Assembly (NCBI RefSeq): GCF_038719015.1
Contig: NZ_CP152276.1
Location: forward strand, 568,001 to 632,000
DNA length: 64,000 nucleotides
Direction of reading: 5' to 3'
From: Nguyenibacter vanlangensis
GTDB lineage: Bacteria; Pseudomonadota; Alphaproteobacteria; Acetobacterales; Acetobacteraceae
Position numbers and translations under genes: made by a program. Under the pieces are notes generated by a model, which saw only the letters and a program-made list of their open reading frames with translations, was not told where the DNA came from and made no database searches. Positions 853 to 58,318 of the stretch are shown here, piece after piece; the first letter of the stretch is position 1; every line of letters starts with the position of its first letter.

Positions 853-1368
853 TCATTCCGTCTGTTTCGATAATGCGCCCGCCCCCGCTCTTTCATAGGG
901 GCCGGAACGCCCGCCCGTCTTGCGCACCAGGCATATCGCCTCGATCGTCATGTCGCGGTCGACGGCCTTGCACATGTCGTAGAGGGTCAGCGCCGCCACG
1001 CTGACCGCGGTCAGAGCCTCCATTTCGACGCCGGTCTGTCCGGTGGTGCCGACATGGGCCGCGATCTCGACCCCTGCCCCGTCGGCGGCGGCCGCCAGTT
1101 CGACCCGGACCGACGTCAGGGGCAGCGGATGGCAGAGCGGGACCAGGTCGGCGGTCTTCTTGGCCGCCATGATGCCGGCGATCCGCGAGACGGCGAGCAC
1201 GTCGCCCTTGGGCACGCCGCCGGAAAGGATGAGGGCCAGGGTTTCGGGCCGCATCGTCACGCGGCCGCGGGCTGTGGCCTGGCGCACGGTCGCCGGCTTG
1301 GCGGACACGTCCACCATCACGGCGTGGCCGCCGGCGTCGAGATGGGAGAGTTCGGCCGCTGCCGCCAT
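853..1368 (-). CDS. moaC: Cyclic pyranopterin monophosphate synthase MoaC
   Basis: Second step of molybdenum-cofactor synthesis: converts the 3',8-cyclo-GTP made by MoaA (44127-45143 here) into cyclic pyranopterin monophosphate. 171 residues, slightly longer than the usual ~160. Seen are the family motif LCHPLPL (78-84) and the active-site segment [22 protein letters not shown] (split here as MEALTAVSV and YDMCKAVD, with D131 and K134). It starts 2 bases after the trpC stop and is the last gene of a ppiD-trpEGDC-moaC run. In many alphaproteobacteria moeA and lexA follow directly; here they lie 13 kb away. Confidence 0.95.
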
Positions 1369-1370
1369 GT

Positions 1371-2234
1371 TCAGGCGGGACCGAGCAGCGCGCGGGCCGC
1401 GTCGCCGGGAGAGGGCTGGCGCAGCAGGCTCTCGCCGACCAGGAATCCGCTGGCGCCGATCTCGCTGAGCCGGACGACGTCCTCATGCGTGCGGATTCCG
1501 CTTTCGGAGACGACGATCCGGTCGGGCGGCACCAGGGGGGTGAGTTGGATCGTTGTCTCAAGATCAGTCTTCAATGTCTTGAGATTGCGGTTATTTATGC
1601 CGATCAGCGACGTGTCCAGGGCCAGGGCCCGGTTCAGTTCGGCTTCGTCATGCACCTCGACCAGAACGTCCATGTCCAGGCCGCGGGCGATATCGAGCAG
1701 TTCCGATGCCTCGGTATCGGTCAGGGCGGCCATGATCAGCAGGATGCAGTCGGCGCCGATGATGCGGCTTTCATGGACCTGCCACGGGTCGAGGATGAAA
1801 TCCTTGCGCAGGATCGGCAGGCGGCTGGCCTCGCGCACCCGCTGGAGGTCCTCCGCACAGCCATGGAAGCATGACCCCTCGGTCAGGACGGAGAGGCAGG
1901 CGGCGCCGGCTTTCTCGTAGTCGGCGGCGATGCCGGCGGGGTCGTATTCGGGGCGGAGGATGCCGGCGGAGGGCGAGGCCTTCTTGATTTCCGCGATCAG
2001 GCCGATCTGGCGATCGGCGGTGCGCTGCTTGAGCGCCTGGCCGAACCCGCGGGTGGGGGTATCGACCTCACGCGCGCGGGCGACGATGTCCTTCAGCGGC
2101 GTGATGGTGGCGCGCTGGGCGACATCCACGCGCGTCCGGGCGCAAATTCGGGCCAGGACGTCCGGAAGGACATCCGGGTCGGGGACGGTACCGCAATCGG
2201 CATGAACCTGATTCGTCGGCATGTCGGTCATCAT
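1371..2234 (-). CDS. trpC: Indole-3-glycerol phosphate synthase
   Basis: Fourth step of tryptophan synthesis from chorismate: closes the indole ring to give indole-3-glycerol phosphate. 287 residues, a single TIM-barrel protein not fused to TrpF. The N-terminal IGPS signature [11 protein letters not shown] lies near residue 81, with [20 protein letters not shown] and the phosphate-binding VSESGI further on. Start and stop overlap the trpD stop as ATGA (2231-2234), indicating translational coupling. A Cys/Asp/Pro-containing N-terminal extension of about 15 residues precedes the conserved domain, so the true start may be slightly downstream. Confidence 0.96.
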
Positions 2235-3418
2235 ACGCTCTGTATACTCTCCTCCGCGCTGCCCGGCCGGGGGGCGCGTGCGGAATTCAATGCGGCCAGT
2301 GCCGATCCGTCATCGAGGACGCGGGCGGCGTCGGCAACCAGGGCACGCAGGGCGTCCGTTCTGATCGCCCCATCGTGAAGCACTTCACCCCGGCCCGCAA
2401 CGTGCAACGATATGGCGGCGTTCAGCAGCACCGTGTCGCGATAGGCGCCGTGCGCTCCGCCCAGCAGGGCCGCCAGGGCGCGGGCGTTCTCGGCCGGGTC
2501 GCCGCCGGCGATCGCCGCGATCGGCGCCGCGCGCAGGCCGGCATCCTCGGGCTGGAGGGTCAGTTCATGGATCCGGCCGTCCTGCAGCGCCACGATGTCG
2601 GTCGGGCCGGCCAGGGTGAGTTCGTCCACGCCCCTGCCCGGCTGCGCGCCGCGGTTTTCGCCGCAGTTCCCGTGGACCGCCCAGACGCGTTCCGAGCCGA
2701 GGTCGCGGAGTGTCTCGACGACCGGGCGAAGCCAGGACGGGTCGTACACCCCGATGAGCTGGCGCCTGACCCCGGCCGGGTTGCTGAGCGGCCCGACCAG
2801 GTTGAACAGGGTGCGGATGCCCAGCGCGGCGCGCACCGGCGCGGCATGGCGCATGGCAGGGTGATGGGCCGGCGCCGCCAGGAAGGCCAGATGGTCGTGC
2901 GTGATCCGCGCGGCGATCAGCGCGGGATCGTCGGACAGCGGCACGCCCAGTTCACCCAGCACGTCGGTGGCGCCGGAGCGCGAGGAGAGCGCGCGGTTGC
3001 CGTGCTTGGCCACCGGCACGCCGAGCGCGGCCAGGACGAAGGCCACGGCGGTCGAGATATTCAATGTGCCCAGCCCGTCGCCGCCCGTGCCGCAGACGTC
3101 GATCGTGCCGGCGGGTACCGGGCCGACCCGGCGCATGCGCGCCCGCATGGCGCGGACCGCGCCCAGCAATTCGGCGGGCCGCTCGCCACGGACGCGCAGC
3201 GCCATCAGGAAGGCGGCGATCAGCGTGTCGGGGATCGCGCCGTCCATGATGAGGCCGAAGACCGTCTCGGCCTCGGCCTCGGTCAGGATGTCGCCGCGGG
3301 CCAGCCGGTCCAGGATGGCGCGGAAGGCGCCGGCGGGGTCGGGAGCCGGAGAATGGGTGGCCGGGGAAGCTGCCGCCGGAGGGGGAGAGTCTGCCGAAAG
3401 GGGCGGAATGCCGTCCAT
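2231..3418 (-). CDS. trpD: Anthranilate phosphoribosyltransferase
   Basis: Transfers the phosphoribosyl group of PRPP to anthranilate in tryptophan synthesis. 395 residues against a usual ~340; the extra length is a Pro/Ala/Ser-rich N-terminal stretch of about 27 residues, so the real start may be internal. Seen are the PRPP-binding DVCGTGGDG, the conserved KHGNRALSSRSGATDVLE-like segment (KHGNRALSSRSGATDVL) and LFNLVGPLSNP. It lies 7 bases after trpG and overlaps trpC by ATGA. Confidence 0.95.
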   Translation of the reverse strand: MDGIPPLSADSPPPAAASPATHSPAPDPAGAFRAILDRLARGDILTEAEAETVFGLIMDGAIPDTLIAAFLMALRVRGERPAELLGAVRAMRARMRRVGPVPAGTIDVCGTGGDGLGTLNISTAVAFVLAALGVPVAKHGNRALSSRSGATDVLGELGVPLSDDPALIAARITHDHLAFLAAPAHHPAMRHAAPVRAALGIRTLFNLVGPLSNPAGVRRQLIGVYDPSWLRPVVETLRDLGSERVWAVHGNCGENRGAQPGRGVDELTLAGPTDIVALQDGRIHELTLQPEDAGLRAAPIAAIAGGDPAENARALAALLGGAHGAYRDTVLLNAAISLHVAGRGEVLHDGAIRTDALRALVADAARVLDDGSALAALNSARAPRPGSAEESIQSV

Positions 3419-3425
3419 GGGCGGG

Positions 3426-4022
3426 TCAGGCGGCCTTGCGGGGCGCGTTGCGCCCGCGGACGATGGCCATGAAATTGGCCAGGATGTCGTGGCCGTGTTC
3501 GGACGCGATGCTTTCGGGATGGAACTGGACGCCGAAGATGGGCAGCGTGCGGTGGCGGAGCCCCATGATCACCCCGTCCTGCGTGTGCGCGACCGGGGCG
3601 AGTTCGTCCGGCAGGCTGGAGGGGTCGATCGTGAGGCTGTGATAGCGGGTGGCCATGAACGGGTCGGGCAGTCCCGCGAACACCCCGCTGCCGTCGTGAT
3701 GGACGGCGCTGACCTTGCCGTGCATCGGGACAGGGGCGCGGACGACGGTGCCGCCGAAGACCTGGCCGATCGCCTGGTGGCCCAGGCAGACCCCGAAGAC
3801 GGGAACCCGGCCGGCGGCCTTGCGGATCAGGTCGCAGCAGATCCCGGCCTCGTTGGGCGAACAGGGGCCGGGCGACAGGACGATCGCCTCGGGCCGCAGG
3901 GCCAGCGCGTCCTCGGACGTCAGAGCGTCGTTGCGGCGGACGTCGCAGACCTCCCCCAGGTCGCCCAGATAATGGACGAGATTGAAGGTGAAGCTGTCGT
4001 AATTGTCGATCAGCAGGATCAT
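3426..4022 (-). CDS. trpG: Anthranilate synthase component II (glutamine amidotransferase)
   Basis: Supplies ammonia from glutamine to TrpE for anthranilate synthesis. 198 residues, a normal stand-alone class I amidotransferase. The nucleophile elbow GVCLGHQAIG contains the catalytic Cys; the His-Glu pair is in VQFHPESIAS near the C terminus; the oxyanion strand is LSPGPCSPNEAG. It is separated from trpE by 144 bases, the only real gap in this operon, and that gap holds a good sigma70-like promoter, so trpGDC-moaC may be transcribed partly on its own. Confidence 0.95.
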   Translation of the reverse strand: MILLIDNYDSFTFNLVHYLGDLGEVCDVRRNDALTSEDALALRPEAIVLSPGPCSPNEAGICCDLIRKAAGRVPVFGVCLGHQAIGQVFGGTVVRAPVPMHGKVSAVHHDGSGVFAGLPDPFMATRYHSLTIDPSSLPDELAPVAHTQDGVIMGLRHRTLPIFGVQFHPESIASEHGHDILANFMAIVRGRNAPRKAA

Positions 4023-4070
4023 GGCAATATGATGAACTCGTGTTTCGGCCCGGTCAAACGGCAGATCCGA

Positions 4071-4099
4071 ATTTAACCGAAATAATCTTTGACGTGCAA
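4071..4099 (-). promoter_or_regulatory. Candidate sigma70-type promoter for trpG-trpD-trpC-moaC
   Basis: On the minus strand TTGCAC (4094-4099) and TTAAAT (4071-4076) are separated by exactly 17 bases, placing a start about 40 bases before the trpG ATG. The surrounding bases are much richer in A+T than the neighbouring genes. No leader peptide with tandem Trp codons was seen, so attenuation is not supported. Confidence 0.4.
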
Positions 4100-4166
4100 A
4101 AAGCGGGAGTTTGTTGCGCTCATCCGGGCCGGTTGCGCAATTTTGTGACGGGTTGCGGGTGCTGCG

Positions 4167-7675: not shown

Positions 7676-7815
7676 GAAATCCAGGGTCCGGACGAGAGCG
7701 GCTTGAGGCGTGCGGCCGCGCGCGGCCACCTTTTCGGCGGGGCACCATAGGGATACCGTTGCCGCTTGACCAGAACCCTGTTCACGGCCGCGCCAGCAGG
7801 GGCTTTGCGGCATTG

Positions 7816-7837
7816 CACCATGCGCGGCCGCATGGTG
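7816..7837. promoter_or_regulatory. Perfect inverted repeat in the ppiD-tpiA divergent promoter region
   Basis: CACCATGCG and CGCATGGTG (9-bp arms, 4-base centre CGGC) lie between the divergent ppiD and tpiA starts, close to TAGGGTATCAG, which could be a -10 region for tpiA. It could be an operator for a dimeric regulator or a leader hairpin. Which protein, if any, binds is unknown. Confidence 0.4.
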
Positions 7838-7930
7838 TAGGGTATCAGAACCTGGTCGGCCTTCCCCCTGAAAAGACGAGACCGCCGGCGGCCGGGTGGA
7901 AGGGCGGCGTTGGCACAGGATGGGAACATT

Positions 7931-8674: not shown

Positions 8675-8709
8675 ACGGTCGGTCTGCTGCGTGTTATCTG
8701 GAAGCTAGT

Positions 8710-9051
8710 ATGATCACCGTCCTTCTTTTTCTGCATCTGTTCGTGACCCTGGCGCTGATCGGGACAGTCCTGATCCAGCGTAGCGAGGGGGGCGGCCTGG
8801 GAATCGGCGGCAGCCAGGGCATGGGGGCGTTCATGTCCGGGCGGGGGACGGCGAACCTGCTGACGCGCACGACCGCGATCCTGGCCGGGATCTTCATGCT
8901 TCTGTCGCTGACCCTGGCGGTGATGAATCGCGGGGCCTCGACCGGCGGTGGCCATGACATCCTGGCCCAGCCGCCCGCGCCGGCCGGCGTTCCGGCCCCT
9001 GCCCCTGCTCCGGCTTCCACCCCTGCTCCGGCGCCCGCGCCGACGCGCTGA
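8710..9051 (+). CDS. secG: Preprotein translocase subunit SecG
   Basis: Small inner-membrane subunit of the SecYEG translocon. 113 residues from the ATG at 8710: a first membrane segment (about 3-20), the conserved RSEGGGLGIGGSQGMGAFMSGRG-type loop (here IQRSEGGGLGIGG and GRGTANLLTRTTAI) and a second membrane segment (about 52-72). The C terminus is a run of Pro-Ala repeats of about 30 residues, as often seen in alphaproteobacterial SecG. It sits 35 bases after tpiA and is followed by a strong terminator. Confidence 0.92.
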   Translation: MITVLLFLHLFVTLALIGTVLIQRSEGGGLGIGGSQGMGAFMSGRGTANLLTRTTAILAGIFMLLSLTLAVMNRGASTGGGHDILAQPPAPAGVPAPAPAPASTPAPAPAPTR

Positions 9052-13758: not shown

Positions 13759-14088
13759 ATGCAGATCGGCCGGATGATTCGGCGGGCAATCCGCATGGTC
13801 GTTCCCCCTGCCCTGTTCATCGGGCTGACCGGTTATTTCGGCTGGAACGCCATGCAGGGCGATCATGGCATGCACAGCTATCAGGCGCAGCTCCGGCTGC
13901 TGGATGAGGCGCGTGCCGCCCAGCAGGACGCGATGTCGGAACAGCTTGCCTGGGCCCGGCGGGTGCGGGGACTGAAGGAAAACGCGCTGGACCGCGACAC
14001 GCTGGACGAGCGGGCGCGGGCGATGCTGAACCTGTCGCGCTCGAATGAGCTGGTCGTTCCCTATGGGGCGCACGACCGGCTTTATTGA
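13759..14088 (+). CDS. ftsB: FtsB/DivIC-family septum formation initiator
   Basis: 109-residue bitopic membrane protein: a short basic N terminus, one membrane helix (about residues 13-30), then a coiled coil (about 38-75), the FtsB/DivIC architecture. The position directly after eno is the usual alphaproteobacterial one for this family, which acts in the divisome with FtsL and FtsQ. Sequence identity within the family is always low, so the call leans on architecture and context. Confidence 0.75.
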   Translation: MQIGRMIRRAIRMVVPPALFIGLTGYFGWNAMQGDHGMHSYQAQLRLLDEARAAQQDAMSEQLAWARRVRGLKENALDRDTLDERARAMLNLSRSNELVVPYGAHDRLY

Positions 14089-15886: not shown

Positions 15887-15980
15887 AACATCAATAGGTT
15901 TCCTGTTTGTTCCCTGCCCTGGTAACGGATCGGCCAACCACGCGTCCAATAAGTCGCTCAATTCGGTCACGGGGGTGCCA

Positions 15981-16775
15981 ATGCTGACACGCAAGCAACA
16001 TGAGCTGCTGCTGTTCATCGACAGGCATCTGAAGCAGACCGGTTTTTCGCCGTCGTTCGATGAGATGAAGGATGCGCTGAACCTGCGGTCGAAATCGGGC
16101 ATTCACCGGCTGATCTCGGCGCTGGAGGAGCGCGATTTCCTGCGGCGGCGCCATCATCGTGCCCGGGCGCTGGAGGTGCTGCGCCTGCCGGAGGTCGTTA
16201 CGGCCGACGGGAGGGCCATGGGGGCGCAGATGGCGGAGGAAGCTGTTTCCTCCCCTGCCCCTGCCCCTGCCCCCGGCCCCGTTCGGGAGACGGAGGCGGC
16301 ACGGGCGCCGGCTGCCGATCCGTTCGTGCCCAATGTGATCCGGGGCGATTTCGCCGGGCGGCTGGCCGGGGCGCCCGTGGCGACGGAAGCGGGGTCGATC
16401 AACCTGCCCTTCTATGGCCGGATCGCCGCCGGCCAGGCCATCGAGGCGCTGCGCGAGACCGGGTCGCAGATCGCGGTGCCGCTGAACCTGCTGGGGCATG
16501 GCGCGCATTACGCGCTGGAAGTCACGGGCGATTCGATGATCGAAGCCGGAATCCTGGACGGGGATACGGTGATTATCCGCGAGGGGGAGTTCGCCGAGAA
16601 CGGGCAGATCGTCGTGGCGCTGATCGACGACCAGGAAGTGACCTTGAAGCGGCTGCGGCGGAAGGGCGGCGCGATCGCGCTGGAGCCGGCCAATGCGCGC
16701 TATGAGACGCGCATCGTGCCGTCGGATCGGGTGCGCATCCAGGGCAGGCTGGTGGGGCTGCTGCGTCAGTACTGA
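15981..16775 (+). CDS. lexA: SOS-response repressor LexA
   Basis: Represses DNA-damage genes and cleaves itself when RecA is activated. The ATG at 15981 gives the family start [12 protein letters not shown]; a GTG two codons earlier is possible. The product is 264 residues, longer than the usual ~230-240. Domains: winged helix (about 1-70), an unusually long linker rich in Ala and Pro (about 85-115, with PAPAPAPGP), cleavage site A150-G151 in RIAAGQ, and the protease domain with S185 (GDSM) and K223 (TLKRL). A typical alphaproteobacterial SOS box lies upstream. A perfect 12-bp inverted repeat follows the gene. Confidence 0.97.
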
Positions 16776-20759: not shown

Positions 20760-20934
20760 GCATCATGCTCCCCGTGCCATCTGTCGTGCCATCCATGACA
20801 TGAGCACGTCGCCATGTCCCGGCAAGGGCGGCGGGTCCGGGCGTCGATGGGGGCCGTCATGGCCCCTGCCCCGCGTCATCGTCGTATCCGGTCGGGAGAT
20901 TGCCGCGTCCGGTGCGGCATCGTAGCGTCGGGAC

Positions 20935-24331: not shown

Positions 24332-25753
24332 TTAGTCCCGCGTGCGCCAGATCGTCGCGAAATCGGGCAGCGTGCGGGCCAGGGTTTCGACCTGCTCCGG
24401 GCCGATCCGGTCCAGATGGGGGAATTCGGCCAGGATGCGGGTGTGGCCGAATTGGGTGACCGCCCGGCGGGCGGCGGCGGAGGGCGGGCCGTTGAGCACG
24501 ATTCCGGCCACGGCGATGCCGCGTTCGCGCAGGGCCTGCAAGGTCAGCAGCGTGTGGTTGATCGTGCCGAGCCCGCTGCGCGCGACCAGGATGACCGGCA
24601 GGGCGAAGCGGGCGATCAGGTCGATCATCATGCAGTCCGCCGTGACGGGGACCATGACGCCCCCTGCCCCTTCGACCACCAGGGGGCGGGGATCGGCGGG
24701 CGGAGGCAAGGCGATGCCGGAGACGTCGAGCGGCGTGCCGGCCAGTTCGGCCGCGTCGAGGGGCGAGAGCGGGGCGGCCAGCGTGGCGAAGGCGGGATGG
24801 ATGGCGGCGGGCGCGCAGGCGCCGAGCGCCGCGAGCGTGTCGGCGTCGGCGGTCTCTTCGGCGATGCCGGTCTGCAGGGGCTTCCAGTAGCGGGCGCCCC
24901 AGGCGCGGACGAGGCAGGCCGAGACCAGGGTCTTGCCGACCCCGGTATCGGTGCCGGTGACGAACACCCCCTTTTGCGGCGGCGCGCGGAACATGCCGTA
25001 GCCGATCCGATATGTCATGACAGGCGCGCCCTGGGAAGCGCCTCGGGCATCCAGCGCGGCCAGCAGGCGGCGCATGGTGCCGGCACCCAGCGGCCGGGCG
25101 CCGTCCTGTGGCAGGGAGGCGCCGATCTGGCGCAGTTCGCGCAGGAAAGCCAGCGGTGACGCCGGCCGGTCGATGACGGTTTCGGTCTGCCACCTGCCCT
25201 GCCCCGGCCAGGGCCAGTCCGCCTGCAGGGTGGCGGTATCGGGATAGGCCGGGGTGGCGCAGGGTACGCCGGCGGCCTGGTGCACGGCGCGCCATTCGGC
25301 GAAGCTGCCGGCGCAGAGGGTGGAAAACCCCATCATGCCGCCGGGCGCCAGCAGGGCGGCCAGCCGTGCCAGGGTAGTCGCGCGGTCGGCGAACCACTGC
25401 ATGGACAGGCTGGAGCAGATCAGATCATAGCCGCTGCCGGCGGCGGCCGGGTCTTCGGCGTCCAGGGTCAGGAACCGGGTCTTGCCGTCCTCGCCCAGCC
25501 TTTGGCGGGCGCGGGCGACCATTTCGGGCGCCAGGTCGGTGACGGTGAGGTCCGCGTCGGGGAACAGGCGGCGCAGATGGGCGCCGAGAAAGCCGGTGCC
25601 GCAGCCGAGTTCGAGGATGCGGGCCGGCGGGGGGGCGCCGGCGGCGATGCGTTCGGCCAGGCGGGCGGCGACCAGGTGCTGGATGCGTGCCGCGCCGTCA
25701 TATTCGGTGGCCGCGCCGAAGCGGGCGGCGAGCTGGTGCTTGCGTGCCGTCAT
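24332..25753 (-). CDS. bioC-bioD: BioC-BioD fusion: malonyl-ACP O-methyltransferase plus dethiobiotin synthetase
   Basis: One open frame of 473 residues encodes two biotin enzymes. Residues ~1-255 are BioC, which methylates malonyl-ACP to start pimelate assembly (SAM loop LELGCGTG at 48-55; CSSLSMQW at 113-120). Residues ~262-473 are BioD, which closes the ureido ring (P-loop GTDTGVGKT at 267-275; KPLQTG; EGAGGVMVP). The link between them is only about five residues, and no stop separates them. The ATG at 25753 overlaps the bioH stop as ATGA. An internal ATG at 24994 could in principle start BioD alone. Confidence 0.9.
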   Translation of the reverse strand: MTARKHQLAARFGAATEYDGAARIQHLVAARLAERIAAGAPPPARILELGCGTGFLGAHLRRLFPDADLTVTDLAPEMVARARQRLGEDGKTRFLTLDAEDPAAAGSGYDLICSSLSMQWFADRATTLARLAALLAPGGMMGFSTLCAGSFAEWRAVHQAAGVPCATPAYPDTATLQADWPWPGQGRWQTETVIDRPASPLAFLRELRQIGASLPQDGARPLGAGTMRRLLAALDARGASQGAPVMTYRIGYGMFRAPPQKGVFVTGTDTGVGKTLVSACLVRAWGARYWKPLQTGIAEETADADTLAALGACAPAAIHPAFATLAAPLSPLDAAELAGTPLDVSGIALPPPADPRPLVVEGAGGVMVPVTADCMMIDLIARFALPVILVARSGLGTINHTLLTLQALRERGIAVAGIVLNGPPSAAARRAVTQFGHTRILAEFPHLDRIGPEQVETLARTLPDFATIWRTRD

Positions 25754-26496: not shown

Positions 26497-27722
26497 GCCG
26501 GCCCGGTTCCCGCCGCGAGCGCCCGCAGCAGGCGGTCGATCATCGAATCATCATGCGCCGCGCTGAGGGCGAGGCGGATGCGGGCGGTGCCGGCGGGGAC
26601 GGTCGGCGGGCGGATGGCGCTGCCGAGGATGCCGTGGTCGGTGAGGGTGCGGGCGAGTTGCAGCGTGCGGTCGGCGGGGCCGACGATGACCGGGACGATC
26701 TGGGTGGTCGAGGCGCCGGTGTCCCAGCCCAGGGCGGCGATGCCGGCGCGGACCCGGTCGGAGATCGCGGACAAATGGGCGCGGGCCGCGTCCATGGTGG
26801 GCACCAGGTCGAGTGCCGCGTCGATCGCGCCCAGCAGGCCGGGCGGCAGCGCGGTGGTGTAGATGAAGCCGGAGCAGGTGCTGACCAGCCAGTCGCACAG
26901 GGCGCGCGAGCCCGCGACATAGGCCCCGAAGCTGCCCATCGCCTTGCTGAACGTGCCCATGGCGAGATCGGCCCCGCCGGATGGGTGGGGGCCGCTCTGG
27001 ATACTCGCGCTCGGGATACTCGCACTTTGGGCGGACAGGCCCCTGCCCTGCGGCCCCAGCACGCCGGTGGCGTGGGCTTCGTCGAGATAGAGGAAGGCGT
27101 CGTGGCGGTCGGCCAGGGCGCGCAGGCCGGCGATGTCGGCGCGGTCGCCATCCATGCTGAAGACGCTTTCGGTGACGATGAAGCGCAGGCCGGCCTGACC
27201 CCGGCGCTGGGTCAGAAGCTGATCGAGATGGTCGAGATCGTTATGGGCGAAGCGGATCTGCCGGACGCCGGCGGCCTGGCAGCCATGGTGCATGCTGGCA
27301 TGGTTGAGGCGGTCGGTGAAGACCAGCGCGGGGGCGCCCGCCTGTTCGCGCGACAGGCGGAACAGCGACGGCAGCACGGCGGCGTTGGCCTGCCAGCCCG
27401 AGGCGAAGAGGAGCGCGGCCTCGGTCCCCTTGAAGCGGGCGAGCTTTTCCTCGACCAGGCGATGCTGGTCGGTGGTGCCGGTGACCAGGCGCGAGGCGCC
27501 GCTGCCGGTGCCGAAACGGCGGGTCCAGTCGATGGCGCGCTCCCGCAAGATGGGATGGCGGGACAGGCCGAGATAGTCGTTGGAGGAGAAATTCAGCAAT
27601 TCCGCGCCGTCGCGCCGGACGATGGCCGGGCCGTGATGGGCGAGCGGCGCCAGGTCGCGCCGGAGATGCTGCCGGGACAAGGCATCGAGCGCCGACTGGA
27701 AATAGGGATCGAAACGGGTCAT
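26493..27722 (-). CDS. bioF: 8-amino-7-oxononanoate synthase
   Basis: PLP enzyme joining pimeloyl-ACP and alanine. 409 residues. Fold-type I features are the FSSNDYLGLSRH segment, the YLDEAHATGVLGPQGRG region with the PLP Asp, and FSKAMGSFGAYVAGS holding the PLP lysine. About ten extra residues near 245 (a Ser/Ile-rich SIPSASIQSGPHP insert made of near-repeats) are unusual. It overlaps bioH by ATGA and diverges from bioA with about 85 bases between the starts. Confidence 0.95.
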   Translation of the reverse strand: MTRFDPYFQSALDALSRQHLRRDLAPLAHHGPAIVRRDGAELLNFSSNDYLGLSRHPILRERAIDWTRRFGTGSGASRLVTGTTDQHRLVEEKLARFKGTEAALLFASGWQANAAVLPSLFRLSREQAGAPALVFTDRLNHASMHHGCQAAGVRQIRFAHNDLDHLDQLLTQRRGQAGLRFIVTESVFSMDGDRADIAGLRALADRHDAFLYLDEAHATGVLGPQGRGLSAQSASIPSASIQSGPHPSGGADLAMGTFSKAMGSFGAYVAGSRALCDWLVSTCSGFIYTTALPPGLLGAIDAALDLVPTMDAARAHLSAISDRVRAGIAALGWDTGASTTQIVPVIVGPADRTLQLARTLTDHGILGSAIRPPTVPAGTARIRLALSAAHDDSMIDRLLRALAAGTGPA

Positions 27723-29610: not shown

Positions 29611-29887
29611 AAGTGTCGCAGCACTTTCCTGTTAACGATCGCCGCTGTTCCGCGACCGCCGGGACCGTCAGTCCCCTATTGTCCTAGTTGGCGCCCGGCT
29701 GCCGCCCGGCTTACGATCCCGATTCCGCTATGCGGGATATGCACGACCCTGCCCGCAATGGCGATCATACCTGTCGTCATGTGGTCAGGATCCGGGATGC
29801 GGCAGTTTCATGAGGGTCAAGGCCCCTGCCTGCATTCCCTGGTCAATTTATTCTCTCATCCTACGTCTGCCAAATGGTTTTTTTGGC

Positions 29888-30814
29888 TCAGGCCGTAGCG
29901 CGTTGCATCAGGACGGCGCGTGGGATGCCCCCGAGATCGGTGCGGATCGCGGCGATGTCAAGGCCCGCTGCGCGCGCGAGGGCGGGCATATCGCGATCCT
30001 GGCCGATTCCGACTTCGAAGATCGCAATTCCGCCGGGGGCCAGCAGCGACGGCAGCAGGAAGGTGAGATGGCGGTAGGCATCGAGTCCGTCCGGTCCGCC
30101 ATCGAGCGCGCGCATGGGTTCGTGATCGCGGACATCGCGCATCAGGCCGGCCAGGTCGCCCCTGGGGATGTAGGGCGGGTTGCTGAAGACGACGTCGAAG
30201 CGCCCCTGGAGCGGCGCGGCCCAGTCGGCGGCGAGCATGGCGCAGCGCCCCGCGAGCCCGGTGCGCCGGGCGTTGCGCGCGGCGAGCGCCGCCGCCGCCG
30301 GGGCGAGGTCCACCCCGACGCCCCAGGCGCCGGGATATTCGCCGAGGGCGGCGAGCAGCAGGCAGCCCGTGCCGGTGCCCAGATCCAGGATGGTGCGCAC
30401 GGCGGCGCGGTCCGGCCGCTGGGCCAGCAGGGCCTCGATCAGCGTTTCGCTGTCGGCGCGGGGGATCAGCGTGGCGGGCGAGGTTTCCAGGTCCAGCGAC
30501 CAGAATCCGGCATGGCCGGTGATGTAGGCCATGGGTTCATGCGCCACGCGGCGGGCGAGCGCCGCGCCGAAGGCCGCATGCTCGGCGGCGTCGAGCGCGC
30601 CCCGCGCCAGCAGGCCGGCCAGGTCGGTGCCCAGGACATGGGCCATGAGCAGCCGGGCCTCGCGCCGGGGGGTGTCGATCCCTGCCCCGGCCAGCCGCGT
30701 GGTGGCTTCGGCCAGCACCGTGGGAAGCGCCAAAGACGATAGCGACTGGGACGATTCGGCCGGTGTCGCGGGTGCTTCAGGCGATGCGGGCGATGCCGGA
30801 TCGTTGATCTTCAT
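29888..30814 (-). CDS. prmC: Peptide chain release factor N5-glutamine methyltransferase
   Basis: Methylates the GGQ glutamine of release factors; the target gene prfA is just upstream. 308 residues with an N-terminal helical domain (about 30-100), the SAM loop ILDLGTGTGCLLLA and the catalytic NPPYI. The first ~30 residues are a low-complexity Ala/Ser/Pro extension, so the start may be internal. Normally prmC follows prfA directly, but here a divergent gene and a cluster of inverted repeats stand between them. Confidence 0.94.
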   Translation of the reverse strand: MKINDPASPASPEAPATPAESSQSLSSLALPTVLAEATTRLAGAGIDTPRREARLLMAHVLGTDLAGLLARGALDAAEHAAFGAALARRVAHEPMAYITGHAGFWSLDLETSPATLIPRADSETLIEALLAQRPDRAAVRTILDLGTGTGCLLLAALGEYPGAWGVGVDLAPAAAALAARNARRTGLAGRCAMLAADWAAPLQGRFDVVFSNPPYIPRGDLAGLMRDVRDHEPMRALDGGPDGLDAYRHLTFLLPSLLAPGGIAIFEVGIGQDRDMPALARAAGLDIAAIRTDLGGIPRAVLMQRATA

Positions 30815-39683: not shown

Positions 39684-39694
39684 ACGGCCCCCCT

Positions 39695-39714
39695 GCCCCG
39701 GCTGGAGCCGGGGC
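39695..39714. terminator. Hairpin between convergent ubiG and lactonase genes
   Basis: GCCCCGGC and GCCGGGGC with loop TGGA. No T-run, so a weak or Rho-assisted terminator at most. Confidence 0.45.
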
Positions 39715-42339: not shown

Positions 42340-43131
42340 TTACGAGCGGGGCGGCGCCGGGGCGCGGGCGGCGACCAGCACATCGACCGAGCGGGCGCCG
42401 GCGGCCAGGAGCACGCGCGCGCATTCACCGGTCGTGGCGCCCGTCGTCATGACGTCGTCGACGAGCAGGATACGTTGCCCGGCGACCTGGGCGGCGCGGC
42501 CGGGGCGGAGCGCGATGGCGCCGCGCAGCGTGTCGCGCCGTGCCGTGGCGCCCAGTCGGCCCAATGGCGGCGTGGGGTGCGGGCGGACCAGCAGATCGGG
42601 GATGGTCGGGAGGCCGGCGAGACGTCCCGTCGCCCGGGCTAGCAGCGCGGCCTGGTTGTAGCGGCGGTGGAACAGGCGCCGGCGATGCAGCGGCACGGGG
42701 ACCAGCAGGTCGGCGCCGTCGAGCAGGCCGGCGCCGGCCCGGAGCATGTGGCGGGCCAGGATCGGGGCGAGGTCGGTGCGGTCGGCGTATTTGAGGCGCA
42801 GGATCAGCGGGCGCGACCATTCGTCATAGACCATCGCCGCGCGGCCTTGGCGCCAGGGCGGCGGGGCCGCGCCGCAGGGGGCGCAGATGCGCCCCGCGCC
42901 GCCGAAGCCCGGCGCGGAAAACGGTTCGCCGCACTGCCGGCAGCACGGCTCGGCGATGAAGCGGATGCGGCGGAAGCATTCGGGGCAGAGCAGGCTCGCT
43001 CGGTCGACCGGCTGGTGACAGAGCGGGCAATCGGGTGGCAGAAGACAATCCAGCAGCAGCGTGCGCGCGCGGCGCAGGGCGGCCGCGGCGCCCCGCCGCC
43101 CTGCCCCGCCGTCCGTTCCGCTGTCCGTCAT
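42340..43131 (-). CDS. comF: ComF-family phosphoribosyltransferase-like protein
   Basis: 263 residues. The N terminus has a double zinc-ribbon (CPLCHQ, CPECF, CRQC and CAPC); the C-terminal half has the PRPP-binding loop ILLVDDVMTTGATTGE and the FHRRYNQAALLARA segment. ComF proteins are needed for natural transformation in some bacteria; here competence is not shown. The start is uncertain (no strong ribosome binding site; the frame opens 14 codons earlier). It is divergent from a methyltransferase gene. Confidence 0.88.
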   Translation of the reverse strand: MTDSGTDGGAGRRGAAAALRRARTLLLDCLLPPDCPLCHQPVDRASLLCPECFRRIRFIAEPCCRQCGEPFSAPGFGGAGRICAPCGAAPPPWRQGRAAMVYDEWSRPLILRLKYADRTDLAPILARHMLRAGAGLLDGADLLVPVPLHRRRLFHRRYNQAALLARATGRLAGLPTIPDLLVRPHPTPPLGRLGATARRDTLRGAIALRPGRAAQVAGQRILLVDDVMTTGATTGECARVLLAAGARSVDVLVAARAPAPPRS

Positions 43132-45468: not shown

Positions 45469-46878
45469 TCAGTGCCCGGCATTTTCCCCCGAGAAATCCG
45501 GCGCGGCGAGGCCGGATTTTTCGAGCTGGGCGGTCAGCGCGACCTTCAGTCGTTCCAGGCCGGCCTGGGTGTTGCCCTCGGCGCGGGCCACCAGCACCGC
45601 CTGGGTGTTGGAGGCGCGCAGCAGCCACCAGCCGTCTTGCGTATTGACGCGGACGCCGTCGATCATCGAGACGTCGCTGCCGTCTTCCTTCAGCCGGCCG
45701 GCGACTTCCTCGATCACCGCGAATTTGCGGGTGTCGGGGCAGTCGAAGCGCAGTTCGGGGGTCGAGATGGTCTCGGGCAGGGCCTCACGCACCGCCGACA
45801 GCGTGGTGTCGAGGCGGGCGACGATGCCGAGCAGGCGCACGGCGGCGTACAGCGCGTCGTCGAAGCCGTACCATTTGTCGGCGAAGAAGATGTGGCCCGA
45901 CATTTCGCCGGCCAGCGGGGACGCGGTCTCGGCCATCTTCGACTTGATCAGCGAATGGCCGGTGCGCCACATCAGCGGCTTGCCGCCGGCCTTCGCCACC
46001 TCGTCGAACAGGACCTGGCTGGCCTTGACGTCGGCGATGATCGTGGCGCCCGGATGGGTGCGCAGCACGTCGCGGGCCAGGATGACCAGGATCTGGTCGC
46101 CCCACAGGATCTCGCCCTTGTCGTCGACCACGCCGACGCGGTCGGCGTCGCCGTCGAAGGCGAGGCCGATATCGGCCCCGGTCCTGCGCACTGTGTCGAT
46201 GAGCTGTTCGAGGTTCTTGGCGACGGTCGGGTCGGGATGGTGCGCCGGGAACGTGCCGTCGATCTCGCCGTTCAGGACGGTGTGCTCGCCGGGGATCTTC
46301 GTGACCAGATCGGCCAGGACCTCGCCCGCGACGCTGTTGCCGTTGTCCCAGACGATCTTGAGCTTGCGGTCGCCGCCGTCCCAATCCTGGACCAGACGGG
46401 TGATGTAGTCGTCCTTGAGATGCACGTCGCGCACGCTGCCCGCGGCCTCGGGCACCACGTCGCCGGCGGCGGCCAGGTCGCCCAGTTCCTTGATCTGGGC
46501 GCCGAAGAACGGCTTGCCCGCCAGCATCATCTTGAAGCCGTTGTAATTGGGCGGGTTGTGGCTGCCGGTGACCATGATGGCGCCGTCGGCCTTGAGCGTG
46601 ACCGACGCGAAATAGAGCATCGGGGTGGGGCCGCGTCCTACGCGCAGGACCTCGACCCCCGACGCCACGGCGCCCTCGACCAGCGCCGCCTCGAGCGCGG
46701 GCGAGGACAGGCGGCCGTCATAGCCGATGGCGACCGTCTTGCCGCCCTTGCGGGCCACGATGCTGCCGAAGGTCCGGCCGATGGCGAACGCGTCTTCGGG
46801 GTGCAGGGTCTTTCCGACGATTCCGCGGATATCATATTCGCGCAGGCTGGTCGGATCGAAACTGTGCGTAAAGGACAT
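45469..46878 (-). CDS. Phosphomannomutase/phosphoglucomutase
   Basis: 469 residues, alpha-D-phosphohexomutase family (AlgC/ManB type). The active-site phosphoserine is in [12 protein letters not shown], the metal loop is [12 protein letters not shown], sugar recognition is GEMSGH and the phosphate loop is [15 protein letters not shown] near the C terminus. It follows galU with a shared TAATG, so both probably supply UDP-glucose and other activated sugars for cell-surface polysaccharides. Confidence 0.9.
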
Positions 46879-50607: not shown

Positions 50608-50725
50608 CCCCATGGCCTTGCGGGCGTTCCGGTCTATAGTGGCTTGGAACGCCGAAAATATATGAGATGCGGGACGGTCCTGCGCCAGGCGCCGTCCGCC
50701 CCGCCAGCCGCGACGGATAGAACCG

Positions 50726-51757
50726 ATGAATGACCTTGCCACCCTGACCGCCGGATCCGTTGCCGAGAACGGGGACGACCTGCCGCCGATCTCGGTCCTG
50801 TCCGCGCCCGACCGCGTCGTGTCCGCCCGCGAGACCTTCGGCATCGACAGCGACCTGGAGGTGCCGGCATTTTCGGTGCGTACCGACCATGTGCCGGATG
50901 CCGACCCGACCTATCGCTTCGATCACGATACGACGCTGGCCATCCTGGCGGGGTTTGCCTTCAACCGCCGGGTGATGATCCAGGGCTATCACGGGACCGG
51001 CAAGTCGTCGCATATCGAGCAGGTGGCGTCGCGCCTGAACTGGCCGTGCGTGCGCATCAACCTGGACAGCCATATCTCGCGCATCGACCTGATCGGCAAG
51101 GATGCGATCGTGCTGCGCGACGGCAAGCAGGTGACGGAATTCCGCGAGGGGCTGTTGCCGTGGGGGCTGCAGCATCCCTGCGCGCTGGTGTTCGACGAAT
51201 ATGACGCGGGCCGTCCGGACGTGATGTTCGTCATCCAGCGCGTGCTGGAGATCGAGGGCCACCTGACCTTGCTGGACCAGAACCGGGTGATCCGGCCGCA
51301 TCCGTATTTCCGGCTGTTCGCCACGGCGAACACGGTCGGGCTGGGCGACACGACGGGGCTGTATCACGGCACGCAGCAGATCAACCAGGGACAGATGGAC
51401 CGCTGGAACATCGTCACCACGCTGAATTACCTGCCCCATGCCGAGGAAACGGCCATCGTGGTGGCCAAGATGGGCGTGGACCCGCATGACGGGCCGGCGC
51501 GCAAGCGGATCGAGAGCATGGTCGCGCTGGCCGACCTGACGCGGTCGGGATTCATCGCCGGGGATATCTCGACCGTCATGTCGCCGCGGACCGTCATAAG
51601 CTGGGCGGAGAATTTCAGGATCTTCAAGGATCTGGAATTCGCCTTCCGCGTGTCGTTCCTGAACAAGTGCGACGAGGCGGAGCGCCCGACCGTGGCGGAA
51701 TATTACCAGCGTTGCTTCAACGTCGACCCCATGGGGGCGGCGGCGCGTCCGCGCTGA
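50726..51757 (+). CDS. cobS: Cobaltochelatase AAA+ subunit CobS
   Basis: MoxR-type AAA+ ATPase that, with CobT, drives cobalt insertion by CobN in aerobic cobalamin synthesis. 343 residues. Walker A is GYHGTGKS (87-94), Walker B LVFDEYD, and the sensor region includes [14 protein letters not shown]. An N-terminal extension of about 40 residues precedes the conserved REtFGID-like start. CobN is not in the window. The gap to cobT is 13 bases. Confidence 0.95.
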
Positions 51758-51770
51758 TCGGCAAGGGGGC

Positions 51771-53672: not shown

Positions 53673-53681
53673 CCCCCTGCC

Positions 53682-55169
53682 CTACTGATTTTTGCCCGGC
53701 GGGTCGGTATCGGTTGGGCGGACATCGGCCAGGCGGATGTCGGTCAGGCGGGCAGCGGCGAAGCCGAGCAGCGCGTCGATCATGCGGTCGGTGTCGCGGG
53801 GCGTCGTGCGATGGTTCACGATGGCCGCGCGGATGGCCAGCATGCCGCCCACCACCGTCGTCGATGGCGCGGCGATGCCGGATTCGTGCAGGTCCTTCAC
53901 CAGTTCGCCGTTCAGCCGGTCCAGGTCGGCGTCCCCGGTCCGTACGCGGAAGCAGACGATGTTGAGCGCGACCGGGGCCAGCCGTTCGAGCATCGGTTCG
54001 GCATCCACGCGGGCGGCCAGGTGGCGGGCGGCCGCGCAGCAGGATTCGACCATCCGGCCCAGGCGGTCGGTGCCGTACGTGCCGAGGGTCATCCAGACCT
54101 TGAGCGCGCGGAAGCCGCGCGACAGGTCGGGCCCGAGGTCGCAGAACCAGGGAGCGTTGGCCGCCAGGCCCCGGTCGGCGCGCGAGAGATAGGCCAGCGA
54201 TTGCGCGAAGGCGGCGGCCTGGCGCCCGGGTTCGCGGACCAGGATGCAGCCGGCGTCGTAGGGGACCTGGGCCCATTTGTGGAAATCGAAGGCCAGGCTG
54301 TCGGCCCGCGACAGGCCGCGCAATTGCGGGCGCAGCCGGTCCGACAGCATGGCCAGGGCGCCGAACGCGCCGTCGACATGGAACCAGAGCCCGTCGCGCG
54401 CCGCGATGGCGGCGATGGCGTCCAGGTCGTCGGTGGCCCCGGTATCGACCGTGCCGGCGGTGCCGATGACGATGAACGGCACGAATCCGGCCCGGCGGTC
54501 GGCCGCGATGGCGGCGTCGAGGGCGGCGATATCCATGCGGTGGGCCGGATCGGCCGGGATGATGCGCAGCGAATCGGTGCCCAGCCCGGCGAGGTCGAAG
54601 GCGCGGGCCACGCAGCCATGGGCGGTTTCGGCCGCGTAGCCGACCAGGCGGCGGCCGCCGACCCCCTGCTGCCGCAAGGACGCGCCGTTGGGGGTGGCGC
54701 GGCTGGCGGTGATCACGGCGATCAGGTTGGCCATGGAGGAGCCGGTGACCAGCAGGCCGGACGAATCGGCGGGGAAGCCCATGATTTCCGCCGCCCATCC
54801 GATGACCGCGCGCTCGATTTCGACCGGTGCGTGGTCGCGGCCCCCGCAATTGGCGTTGAGCCCCCCGGCGAGCATTTCGGCCAGCATGCCGATCGCGGTG
54901 CCGCCGCCATGCACCCATCCCATGAAGCCCGGATGGGTATTGCCGGTGGCATAGGGCGCGACCTGGTCGCGGAACCGTTCGTACAGCGCCTGGGGCGCCG
55001 TGGGCGCGGTGGGCAAAGGCTGGTCGCGCAGGCCGGCGCGGAAATCGTCGGGCAGCTTGCGCCAGACCGGGCCGTCGCGCAGGCCGGCCAGATGGTCGAA
55101 CATGTCGTCCAGCATGCGGTGGCCGAGGCCGCGCAGTTCGTCCCAATCGTCGGGGTCCAGTCCGGTCAT
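53682..55169 (-). CDS. PLP-dependent amino-acid decarboxylase (group II)
   Basis: 495 residues of the aromatic/glutamate decarboxylase superfamily. Seen are HPGFMGWVHGGGT, TGSSMANLIAVITASRA, FHVDGAFGALAM, and the PLP lysine in SLAFDFHKWAQVPYDAG. The substrate cannot be read from the sequence; relatives decarboxylate aromatic amino acids, diaminobutyrate or act as carbon-carbon lyases. A 130-base region separates it from the divergent hydrolase homologue. Confidence 0.85.
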   Translation of the reverse strand: MTGLDPDDWDELRGLGHRMLDDMFDHLAGLRDGPVWRKLPDDFRAGLRDQPLPTAPTAPQALYERFRDQVAPYATGNTHPGFMGWVHGGGTAIGMLAEMLAGGLNANCGGRDHAPVEIERAVIGWAAEIMGFPADSSGLLVTGSSMANLIAVITASRATPNGASLRQQGVGGRRLVGYAAETAHGCVARAFDLAGLGTDSLRIIPADPAHRMDIAALDAAIAADRRAGFVPFIVIGTAGTVDTGATDDLDAIAAIAARDGLWFHVDGAFGALAMLSDRLRPQLRGLSRADSLAFDFHKWAQVPYDAGCILVREPGRQAAAFAQSLAYLSRADRGLAANAPWFCDLGPDLSRGFRALKVWMTLGTYGTDRLGRMVESCCAAARHLAARVDAEPMLERLAPVALNIVCFRVRTGDADLDRLNGELVKDLHESGIAAPSTTVVGGMLAIRAAIVNHRTTPRDTDRMIDALLGFAAARLTDIRLADVRPTDTDPPGKNQ

Positions 55170-55299
55170 GAGCCTGTATGTCCTGTTGAGGTGGGAGCAG
55201 CGGGCGGCCGGTTTCGTCGCGGGTTTCGTCCCCGGTTTTGTCCAGTGCCGCGACTGTGCCTATATGTCTGTCTGTCGTATGTGCCCCTATCCGGGCGTC

Positions 55300-56139
55300 A
55301 TGTCTGCAATGGATCGCTGCATGTTCTTCGGGCAACTGGAATTGACGGACGTAGCGTGGGGCGCGGGGCGCGTACGGGCGCGGCTGGGCGGCCGGGGGCC
55401 GCTGCTGGTGCTGCTGCACGGCCAGGTGCAGAGTCACGCGGCCTGGCACGATGTGGCCCCGCGACTGGCCGACCGCCATACCGTGCTGTGTCCGGACCTG
55501 CCGCGCGACATGGATTTTGCCCGGCAGGCGCGCGATCTGCTGGCCTGCGCGCGGGCGCTGGGCCATGAGACGCTGGCCATCGCGGGGCATGGGACGGGCG
55601 GCCATGTGGCGGCCTATGCCGCCGCCTATGCTGCCTCGTGGGCGCCGGAGCGGGTGACGCATCTGGCCGAGATCGAATGCATCCCCTCGCCCGGGCATCA
55701 TGGCCGGGCGGACCTGGCCTATGAATTATCGCGCTATCAGGCCTGCTGGTTCGCGCAGCTTCATCCGAAGCCGGAATCGGCGACGGTGGCGGTTCCCGAG
55801 GAATGGACGCAGCCCGCGGCGGAATCGGCCGGTGCCTTCAACCCCTCGGCCGTGGCCGACTACCTGGACCTGGTGCCGCCGGGCCAGTCACCCGGGGCGA
55901 ACGGGCATTTCCGGGTGCCGCCCTATCCGGTCGATCTGCGTTTCGGGTGTCCGCTGCTGGTCGCCTGGTCGCGCGACGGGCGGCTGGGCGGCTGGTACGA
56001 TCCGCCGGACCTGTGGCGGGCCTTTGCGACCGGGCCGGTCGAGGGGCTGGAAGTCGATTGCGGCTATTACATTCCCGAAGAGGCGCCCGACATCCTGTCG
56101 GACGCGCTGCGGCGGTTTCTGACGGCCGAGCTTTATTAA
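55300..56139 (+). CDS. Haloacetate-dehalogenase-like alpha/beta hydrolase with all catalytic residues replaced
   Basis: 279 residues; the start could also be at 55309 or 55321. The layout follows fluoroacetate dehalogenases: LLVLLHGQVQSHAAWHDVAPRLA, VLCPDLPRDMDFARQARDLL, the CWFAQLHPKPE segment and WRAFATGPVEGLEVDCGYYIPEEAP. But the nucleophile elbow reads GHGTGG (Gly98 where GHDRGG has the Asp), the acid strand EIECIPS has Glu for Asp, and the final GHF/GHY motif reads GYY (Tyr256 for His). It is probably a non-catalytic homologue or has a changed chemistry. Confidence 0.8.
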   Translation: MSAMDRCMFFGQLELTDVAWGAGRVRARLGGRGPLLVLLHGQVQSHAAWHDVAPRLADRHTVLCPDLPRDMDFARQARDLLACARALGHETLAIAGHGTGGHVAAYAAAYAASWAPERVTHLAEIECIPSPGHHGRADLAYELSRYQACWFAQLHPKPESATVAVPEEWTQPAAESAGAFNPSAVADYLDLVPPGQSPGANGHFRVPPYPVDLRFGCPLLVAWSRDGRLGGWYDPPDLWRAFATGPVEGLEVDCGYYIPEEAPDILSDALRRFLTAELY

Positions 56140-57125
56140 GCGCCCACCTGGGCCGTGTCCTGGCTTGCCTGGCGCTGGTTCTGCGCCGCCGCGTAGCGGC
56201 GGGCGAGGACGGCGCAGACGAAGAGCTGGATCTGGTGATAGATCATCAGCGGCAGGACCACGAGCCCGACCGTGGCCGGGGCGAAGAGGACGTTGGCCAT
56301 CGGCACGCCGGAGGCCAGGGTCTTCTTCGAGCCGCAGAAGACGATCGCCGCTTCGTCCGTGGGGGAGAAGCCCAGGACGCGGCTGCCCATGGTGGTGACG
56401 AGCAGAACCGCCGCCAGCAGGGCGGCGTCGACCAGCAGGACCAGGCCGATCTGCGACAGCGGCAGCTTGTGCCACAGGCCCTGGATCACGGCCTCGCTGA
56501 ACGCGGTGTAGACGACGATCAGGATCGAGCCGCGATCGGTCATGGAGAGCAGGCGCTTGTTGCGATGCGCCCATTTGCCCAGCCAGGGCTGCAGGACCTG
56601 GCCCAGCACGAAGGGCAGCAGCAATTGCAGCATGATCGCCACCACCCCGCCCTGGCCGGCGGACGCGCCGTGCCGGCCGAGCACCAGGCCGGTCAGCACC
56701 GGGGTGATGAAGATGCCCAGGATGTTGGAGGTGGTGGCCGAGCAGACCGCCGCCGGCACGTTGCCGCGCGCGATCGAGGTGAAGGCGATCGAGGACTGGA
56801 CGGTCGAGGGCAGGCAGCACAGGAAGAGGATGCCCAGCCACACCGAGGGATGCAGCAGATGCGGGAAGAGCGCGTGCAGCCCCAGCCCCAGCAGCGGGAA
56901 CAGCGCGAAGGTGCAGAGCAGGATCACCAGGTGCAGCCGCCAGTTGACCAGCCCGTCCAGCACCGCCCGGCGCGACAGGCGCGCGCCCTGGAGGAAGAAC
57001 ATGACGGCGATGACCGCGATGGCCAGATCCTGGAAGACGGGGACCGCCGCGCCGTGGCACGGCAGCAGGGTGGCGAGGATGACGGTGCAGATGAGGCTGA
57101 TCAGGAACGGATCCGGCTTGAACAT
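56136..57125 (-). CDS. Bile acid:sodium symporter family transporter (SBF-like)
   Basis: 329 residues with nine or ten hydrophobic segments. The family-typical CCLPSTVQSSIAFTSIARGN and FCGSKKTLASGVPMA motifs place it in the SBF-like (PF13593) group of membrane transporters; the substrate is unknown. It is convergent with the hydrolase homologue; their two TAA stops share the bases TTAA. Upstream lies a 240-base region with five 16-bp repeats. Confidence 0.88.
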   Translation of the reverse strand: MFKPDPFLISLICTVILATLLPCHGAAVPVFQDLAIAVIAVMFFLQGARLSRRAVLDGLVNWRLHLVILLCTFALFPLLGLGLHALFPHLLHPSVWLGILFLCCLPSTVQSSIAFTSIARGNVPAAVCSATTSNILGIFITPVLTGLVLGRHGASAGQGGVVAIMLQLLLPFVLGQVLQPWLGKWAHRNKRLLSMTDRGSILIVVYTAFSEAVIQGLWHKLPLSQIGLVLLVDAALLAAVLLVTTMGSRVLGFSPTDEAAIVFCGSKKTLASGVPMANVLFAPATVGLVVLPLMIYHQIQLFVCAVLARRYAAAQNQRQASQDTAQVGA

Positions 57126-57240
57126 CGAACGAAGGTCCCGGTGAAACGCATGGGCCGGTGCGCCGGCCGGCTGGAAGGGATTTGAAGGCGGAACGGGCGC
57201 GGCGGGCGATGCCGCCTCGCCTCGGTCATACTCTCATGTC

Positions 57241-57319
57241 ATTGATTGCGTCATGGATTGATTGCGTGACGGATTAACCGCGTCACGGATTGACTGCGTC
57301 ATGTTAACTGCGTCAGGGG
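57241..57319. repeat. Five imperfect 16-bp direct repeats upstream of the SBF transporter and exported-protein genes
   Basis: Units follow each other at 57241, 57257, 57273, 57289 and 57304: ATTGATTGCGTCATGG, ATTGATTGCGTGACGG, ATTAACCGCGTCACGG, ATTGACTGCGTCATG and TTAACTGCGTCAGGGG. They share GCGTCA and lie in the divergent promoter region. A TGACGTCA palindrome follows at about 57333. They could be cooperative binding sites or decayed slippage copies. Confidence 0.8.
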
Positions 57320-57364
57320 CGGCATCCGTCGATGACGTCACTTTTTTCGGCCGGAACGACGACT

Positions 57365-58318
57365 ATGCGACTCCCCTTGTTTGCGTCCCTTGCCGTGGCC
57401 CTGGCGCTGCCGGCCGTTCTGCTGGCGGGCGCGGCCCCGGCCGCCGCGCTGCCCCTGCCCGCGAACTGCGCCGTCGCGCGGGCCGCGCCGGCCCCCGTGC
57501 CCGGCGGGGCGGCGGCCCGCGATTACAGGCTGCGCCTTGCCGGGGGGGCGGACGCCCCTTCGCTCCGTGCCGGCCTGGTCACCATCAGGGGCGGGGACGG
57601 CGCGGCGCCCGAGACATTGCCCGAGATATTGAACGCGGCGTCGGTCGGGCTGCTGGGCGCGCTGAGCGGCCGTCATGCGCCCGGATGTTCGACCGAGTAT
57701 TTCGCGACGGCCTTGCAGCCCGTGCTGCGCGGGCTGGCGGCGGGGCGGGCCTATGACGTGGCGTGGCGCGGGGTCGAGGCGGTCAGCGGCCGGTCGCGCC
57801 TGTCGATGGGAATGCTGCGCCTGCATCTGGAAGGGGCGCCGCCGGGCATGCAGCCGGGCGTTTCGATGACGATGTCGCTGGAGATGCACGGGTTGCGCGA
57901 CGACGGCGCGGCGGTGCCGGCCGCATTGCTGCCCGAGGATGCGCGGTCGGTCGTCTCGCTGCCCGTTTCGGCGCTGGCGCCGCTGCTGGCGGCGACGGCG
58001 GGCGGGCCGGTACGTCCGGTCGCGGTGCCGGTGACCATCCGGACCCTGACGGCGGCGCATGGCGACATGCGGCTGGACGGCAGCTTCATGGCGGTGGTGA
58101 CCGGCCTGCCGGACGGGGCGTCGGCCAGCGGGCACATGCGGATGCGCAACCTGCCCGAATTGATCGCCGCCCTGCGCGACGCGGGCCAGACGCGGGCCAG
58201 TGCCGCGCTGGTCCTGGCCAACCTGGTCGGGCACCATGCGGACGATGCGACGTCGTGGGACGTGGATTGGCAGGGGGGCATCCTGACGGTGAACCGGATC
58301 CCCCTGCCCTTGCGCTGA
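57365..58318 (+). CDS. Exported protein of unknown function
   Basis: 317 residues from the ATG at 57365 (GGAA about 8 bases upstream). A clear signal peptide (LPLFASLAVALALPAVLLAGAAPAAA) is followed by a mainly beta-type mature part, with two Cys (about 36 and 103) that could pair. The C terminus DWQGGILTVNRIPLPLR recalls large periplasmic AsmA/DUF2125-like repeat proteins, but I cannot assign a family. It lies between the 16-bp repeats and a convergent dehydrogenase. The 3' end is duplicated in tandem. Confidence 0.65.
   Translation: MRLPLFASLAVALALPAVLLAGAAPAAALPLPANCAVARAAPAPVPGGAAARDYRLRLAGGADAPSLRAGLVTIRGGDGAAPETLPEILNAASVGLLGALSGRHAPGCSTEYFATALQPVLRGLAAGRAYDVAWRGVEAVSGRSRLSMGMLRLHLEGAPPGMQPGVSMTMSLEMHGLRDDGAAVPAALLPEDARSVVSLPVSALAPLLAATAGGPVRPVAVPVTIRTLTAAHGDMRLDGSFMAVVTGLPDGASASGHMRMRNLPELIAALRDAGQTRASAALVLANLVGHHADDATSWDVDWQGGILTVNRIPLPLR

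Follow-up and report, generated by a model that had tools for sequence, protein, structure and literature searches.

The octamer GGGCAGGG as the very probable FtsK-orienting polar sequence of the Nguyenibacter vanlangensis chromosome

Octamer sites in the window

Here we analyse a strand-biased octamer, GGGCAGGG (which reads CCCTGCCC on the opposite strand), in a 64,000-nucleotide stretch of the Nguyenibacter vanlangensis genome. This stretch, hereafter the window, comprises bases 568,001–632,000 of a single 4,751,768-bp contig. A preliminary description of the window had likened the octamer to the Escherichia coli FtsK-orienting polar sequence (KOPS), and GGGCAGGG does fit the KOPS consensus, GGGNAGGG. 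The window holds 20 exact matches: CCCTGCCC occurs 19 times on the + strand and once on the − strand (at 45775), which is indeed the only copy in the opposite orientation. All of the positions listed previously were correct except 57452, which is really 57453. The window is on the leftward-replicated arm, 27.6 kb from dif, so that its copies, taken as KOPS, point left. All single sites below are exact matches, and gene calls were used in addition for those outside called genes.

1072..1079, − strand, predicted KOPS GGGCAGGG (CCCTGCCC on the + strand), pointing left, towards dif
2632..2639, − strand, predicted KOPS, leftward
8997..9004, − strand, predicted KOPS, leftward, outside called genes
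13806..13813, − strand, predicted KOPS, leftward
15912..15919, − strand, predicted KOPS, leftward, outside called genes
16253..16272, − strand, three overlapping matches (16253, 16259 and 16265) in the lexA (CCCTGC)n repeat, counted as one place
20864..20871, − strand, predicted KOPS, leftward
24662..24669, − strand, predicted KOPS, leftward
25197..25204, − strand, predicted KOPS, leftward
27041..27048, − strand, predicted KOPS, leftward
29747..29754, − strand, predicted KOPS, leftward, outside called genes
30680..30687, − strand, predicted KOPS, leftward
39691..39698, − strand, predicted KOPS, leftward, outside called genes
43099..43106, − strand, predicted KOPS, leftward
45775..45782, + strand, exact match, the sole GGGCAGGG in the non-permissive (rightward) orientation
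53675..53682, − strand, predicted KOPS, leftward, outside called genes
57453..57460, − strand, predicted KOPS, leftward
58302..58309, − strand, predicted KOPS, leftward

Genes in the window were called with a heuristic home-made caller (51 genes). By these calls, the 19 copies of CCCTGCCC on the + strand are spread over + genes (7), − genes (7) and DNA outside called genes (5), as had been described. The three matches in lexA (15975–16775, + strand) belong to a single (CCCTGC)n repeat coding for Pro-Ala, which leaves 17 independent + strand places and a single − strand one. This repeat sits between the DNA-binding and peptidase domains of LexA. We considered the triple as a built-in strong KOPS and rejected this, as it is a Pro-Ala codon repeat.

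The octamer is over-represented in the window. Dinucleotide shuffles gave 5.92 ± 2.33 copies over both strands (maximum 11), and none of 100 reached 20. The earlier expectation of about five per strand proved too simple, because the expected number depends on the model: Markov models predict 1.7 on the + strand and 4.6 on the − strand at order 1, 3.3 and 5.0 at order 4, and 6.5 and 5.0 at order 5, those of low order thus giving fewer on + than on −. An order-6 model, which already holds most of the octamer, predicts 12.0 and 3.1. G outnumbers C on the window's + strand (GC skew +0.097), and base composition would accordingly put only 29% of the copies in the orientation observed (one-sided P = 9e-10 for 19 of 20, or 1e-8 for 17 of 18 with the lexA triple taken as one). 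For strand bias measured in the window only, the octamer comes 8th of 14,516. The window by itself is insufficient proof, and the case rests on the genome.

Polarity along the chromosome

Across the whole genome the octamer is present in 759 copies (405 + 354), compared with 464 (218 + 246) for the reversed control pattern. The two strand totals, 405 and 354, are uninformative on polarity because the two arms cancel. Polarity was instead determined in a sample made up of the window and 80 further stretches of 20 kb each (1.664 Mb in all, 35% of the genome; denser near both switch points), to which the chromosomal counts in this section refer unless stated otherwise. In this sample, 228 of 289 copies are on the leading strand and both arms are biased in the same sense (116 of 139 and 112 of 150), as expected of KOPS. 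When the sample is oriented by replication arm and every octamer with 20 or more copies is counted in its commoner orientation, GGGCAGGG ranks first of 16,446 for leading-strand bias (229:60). It keeps this rank when the window is removed (210:59), so the bias persists outside the window, where equal use of both strands had been named as a possible refutation. The other letters at position 4 are rare and lean alike (GGGGAGGG, 23:3; GGGAAGGG, 29:14; GGGTAGGG, 6:2).

The copies are both denser and more strongly biased near the terminus than far from it. Over seven bins of distance from dif (0–100, 100–250, 250–500, 500–1000, 1000–1500, 1500–2000 and 2000–2400 kb), the density is 28.2, 17.7, 13.5, 19.8, 18.6, 15.9 and 12.6 copies per 100 kb, and the leading share is 92, 92, 82, 88, 85, 74 and 48%. 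The first bin contains 46 leading copies out of 50. Three 20-kb stretches sampled within 1–115,000 are sparser than the rest (one copy in 60 kb) and perhaps represent acquired DNA.

The dif site, ACATCGCATAACATATATTATGCCAATT, has two Xer arms and lies at 540,378–540,405. Its 23-bp core has no other match in the genome at up to 3 mismatches, and the site differs at 9 of 28 bases from what we take to be the E. coli dif. Before dif, GGGCAGGG on the + strand is last found at 534,652; after it, CCCTGCCC on the + strand first occurs at 543,667, and one GGGCAGGG on the + strand lies past dif, at 551,212. A two-switch scan, with octamer positions as its only input (concordant minus discordant, 185 of 289), placed the terminal switch at 534,652–543,667, an interval that encloses dif. 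KOPS polarity locates the terminus to within about 9 kb where GC skew is uninformative. A XerD model gave best matches of 272.7 and 198.9 bits in this genome, below its cut-off of 329.6, a threshold passed by only 4 of 14 control genomes, which leaves the assignment of XerC and XerD tentative. The gene dnaA lies at 425,445, 115 kb from dif and distant from the parS region.

On the origin side, parS sites are found at 3,049,619 and 3,047,303 (0 and 1 mismatches), adjoined by parA, gidB, gidA and mnmE, with hemE at 3,034,602; we take this cluster to be the usual alphaproteobacterial origin neighbourhood. A third parS-like place at 522,313 (3 mismatches) does not stand out from the reversed control pattern, for which matches likewise occur. 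The terminus therefore lies to the left of the window, as had been proposed: dif is on that side, and the parS cluster is across the circle at 3.03–3.05 Mb. By dif and parS, the leading strand in the window is the − strand, and GC skew read in the conventional way would put the terminus on the wrong side.

The same convergence on dif is seen in other genomes. With up to 3 mismatches allowed, the dif pattern was present in 20 of the 60 genomes, our own included, and as much as 20 kb of DNA to either side of dif was read, less at contig ends. In the assemblies of the 19 relatives, 137 copies point towards dif and 3 away, compared with 26 and 17 for the reversed control pattern. Two of these assemblies, G004 and G012, correspond to the two public chromosome sequences of one strain, Gluconacetobacter diazotrophicus PAl 5 (99.49–99.97% identity in aligned pieces beside dif), so that the independent relatives number 18; without G012 the count is 124:3.

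FtsK and the reading of the octamer

An FtsK with a gamma domain is encoded in the same genome: its winged helix (PF09397, 100 bits) lies at 3,134,891–3,135,073. The protein is 85–86% identical to the FtsK of Gluconacetobacter tumulicola and G. dulcium, which marks the organism as Gluconacetobacter-like (Acetobacteraceae, Alphaproteobacteria), and it matches solved FtsK chains in the PDB, presumably those of the E. coli and Pseudomonas proteins. Together with the fit to consensus, the over-representation, the leading-strand bias of both arms and the inversion at dif, this makes it very probable that GGGCAGGG is the KOPS of this chromosome and directs FtsK to the terminus. By analogy with E. 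coli and other bacteria, FtsK-gamma would load on each GGGCAGGG in one direction, and the motor at the closing septum would thereby be sent towards dif, where FtsK would activate XerCD and so chromosome dimer resolution.

The resemblance to E. coli is close. According to passages of two sources (PMC2680272, PMC5357621), E. coli combines KOPS GGGNAGGG, FtsK-gamma and XerCD/dif, with the same octamer and a leading-strand polarity that converges on dif; an FtsK gamma domain, a dif-like site and a leading share above 90% near dif (92% here) are likewise common to both. One of these describes a KOPS concentration that climbs towards dif, with more than 90% leading nearby (PMC5357621), and differs in this from a passage of another source, in which KOPS density is even over the E. 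coli chromosome (PMC3140498). Unlike in E. coli, there is no supporting GC skew here, an Arg of the recognition helix appears to be replaced by Lys, and dif differs at the nine bases mentioned above. In passages on Azorhizobium caulinodans and on large alphaproteobacterial replicons, GGGNAGGG polarity also converges on or inverts at dif (PMC2443382, PMC13342612); these belong to other orders, and the passages do not name Acetobacteraceae. Alphaproteobacterial GGGNAGGG polarity being already published in these sources, the present case is a new instance of a well-known type. A literature search, covering for its broadest query the papers listed first, found no KOPS polarity for Gluconacetobacter or Gluconobacter.

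Several observations weigh against a KOPS. At more than 2.0 Mb from dif no bias is left (26 of 54 copies leading), and copy density falls non-monotonically with distance. The best origin-side switch is at 3.197–3.239 Mb, about 150 kb off parS; the predicted orientation switch is seen at dif and, in a loose form only, near the origin. The dif pattern matched none of 40 of the 60 genomes, which were left out of the polarity count. Lagging-strand genes hold leading-oriented copies in a higher proportion (100:14) than leading-strand genes do (75:31), which points to a contribution from codons. Lastly, the residue that aligns with E. coli R1300 is a Lys. According to passages of PMC2680272, R1300, E1303 and E1306 help to read KOPS in E. 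coli; mapped onto the helix through the R-x-x-E-x-x-E spacing, the aligned residues here are K, E and E.

This Lys would also suit a different identity for the octamer, as a polar word of another system (an architecture imparting sequence, AIMS) such as a Chi-like repair site, not read by FtsK. In passages of PMC5993296, AIMS are the wider statistical class, of which KOPS are a functional subclass, and, as here, are strand-biased octamers whose abundance and bias are greater close to the terminus than close to the origin; chi is distinct from AIMS, which gain abundance and bias towards the terminus. The exact consensus match, an FtsK-gamma in the genome and a polarity that converges on dif in the 19 relatives' assemblies favour KOPS over Chi, and we consider a non-FtsK word very unlikely.

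Strand-specific mutation or base skew, with the bias as a side effect, would explain why some short words are also leading-biased (TGCTGG, 1955:1511; GGGGCG, 1801:1494). The GC skew of the + strand is, however, equally small on both arms (+0.011 and +0.015) and in the window runs opposite to the motif, and of the one-mismatch neighbours that differ outside position 4, most are about equally frequent in both orientations or biased the other way (GGGCCGGG, 207:202; GGCCAGGG, 217:245; GCGCAGGG, 151:224). With the wrong sign in the window and the arms alike, base skew was rejected as extremely improbable. Codon usage combined with gene orientation could account for the excess in lagging-strand genes and for the Pro-Ala codons of the lexA triple. 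Yet leading-strand genes, lagging-strand genes and DNA outside called genes (53:16, heuristic caller) all show a bias of the same sign, and all three frame offsets are represented among the copies. As the whole cause this effect was likewise rejected, and we give it next to no credence. A local cluster or island was discarded because the polarity extends along both arms. From these controls we infer that selection on the motif, and not base skew or coding, maintains the bias, which suggests that strand polarity can be selected on a motif without base skew.

For a KOPS read by this FtsK, the Lys is part of a wider pattern. Among 78 readable helices from 80 FtsK loci (found with a search pattern that fixes the last E), the R1300 position holds Ser in 38, Lys in 19, Arg in 14, Asn in 4 and Thr in 3. 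The 64 helices with a residue other than Arg are the basis for a tentative proposal, one we hold to be possible and somewhat doubtful: in Acetobacteraceae, and perhaps in most alphaproteobacteria, FtsK-gamma might read GGGCAGGG with a non-Arg residue at this position. If so, R1300 would be dispensable for KOPS specificity and the remaining interface would compensate.

PAl 5 assemblies and the surroundings of dif

The two PAl 5 sequences (3,887,492 and 3,944,163 in the passages of PMC3035290) differ in how KOPS, dif and parS agree. In G004, dif (212,914) and parS (2.15 Mb) are nearly antipodal. Of its 318 matches to GGGCAGGG on the + strand, the 100 listed comprise 46 within 213 kb to the left of dif, the nearest of them 1.1 kb away, and 54 over the following 1.92 Mb; the other 218 are beyond 2.13 Mb or on the second contig. 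In G012, just 0.78 Mb separates parS (1.22 Mb) from dif, and GGGCAGGG on the + strand dominates on both sides of parS (38:7 at 98–1,196 kb and 15:5 at 1,274–1,882 kb; 20 stretches, all within the first 1.9 Mb). An optical map, according to a passage of the same source, showed the G012 (RioGene) assembly to be heavily rearranged (PMC3035290), and we therefore read the disagreement as misassembly. KOPS polarity may thus flag assembly errors, the PAl 5 sequence with the conflict being the rearranged one. In both assemblies dnaA is again close to dif (about 212 kb for G004:C1:1160 and 207 kb for G012:C3:1799323), so its placement near the terminus is shared with N. vanlangensis.

Nine of the 12 same-genus assemblies (8 of 11 strains), namely G005, G003, G004, G012, G011, G006, G007, G001 and G008, carry on the far side of comM another dif-like site, inverted and with a variant XerC arm, 1.7–3.2 kb from dif. 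In our own genome (540,378–541,970) and in G002, G009 and G010, one dif was found, with ppx on its other side, divergent from comM. Such an arrangement could have arisen if the comM segment inverted between inverted dif sites and one site was then lost; alternatively, a larger inversion may have occurred. A literature search for inverted dif sites found none. In G009, the comM next to dif is split, with about 10.7 kb between its two matching parts, which is what an insertion would produce. A contig end lies 7–20 kb from dif in all 10 same-genus assemblies besides PAl 5 (G001, G002, G003 and G005–G011), where a repeat is possible.

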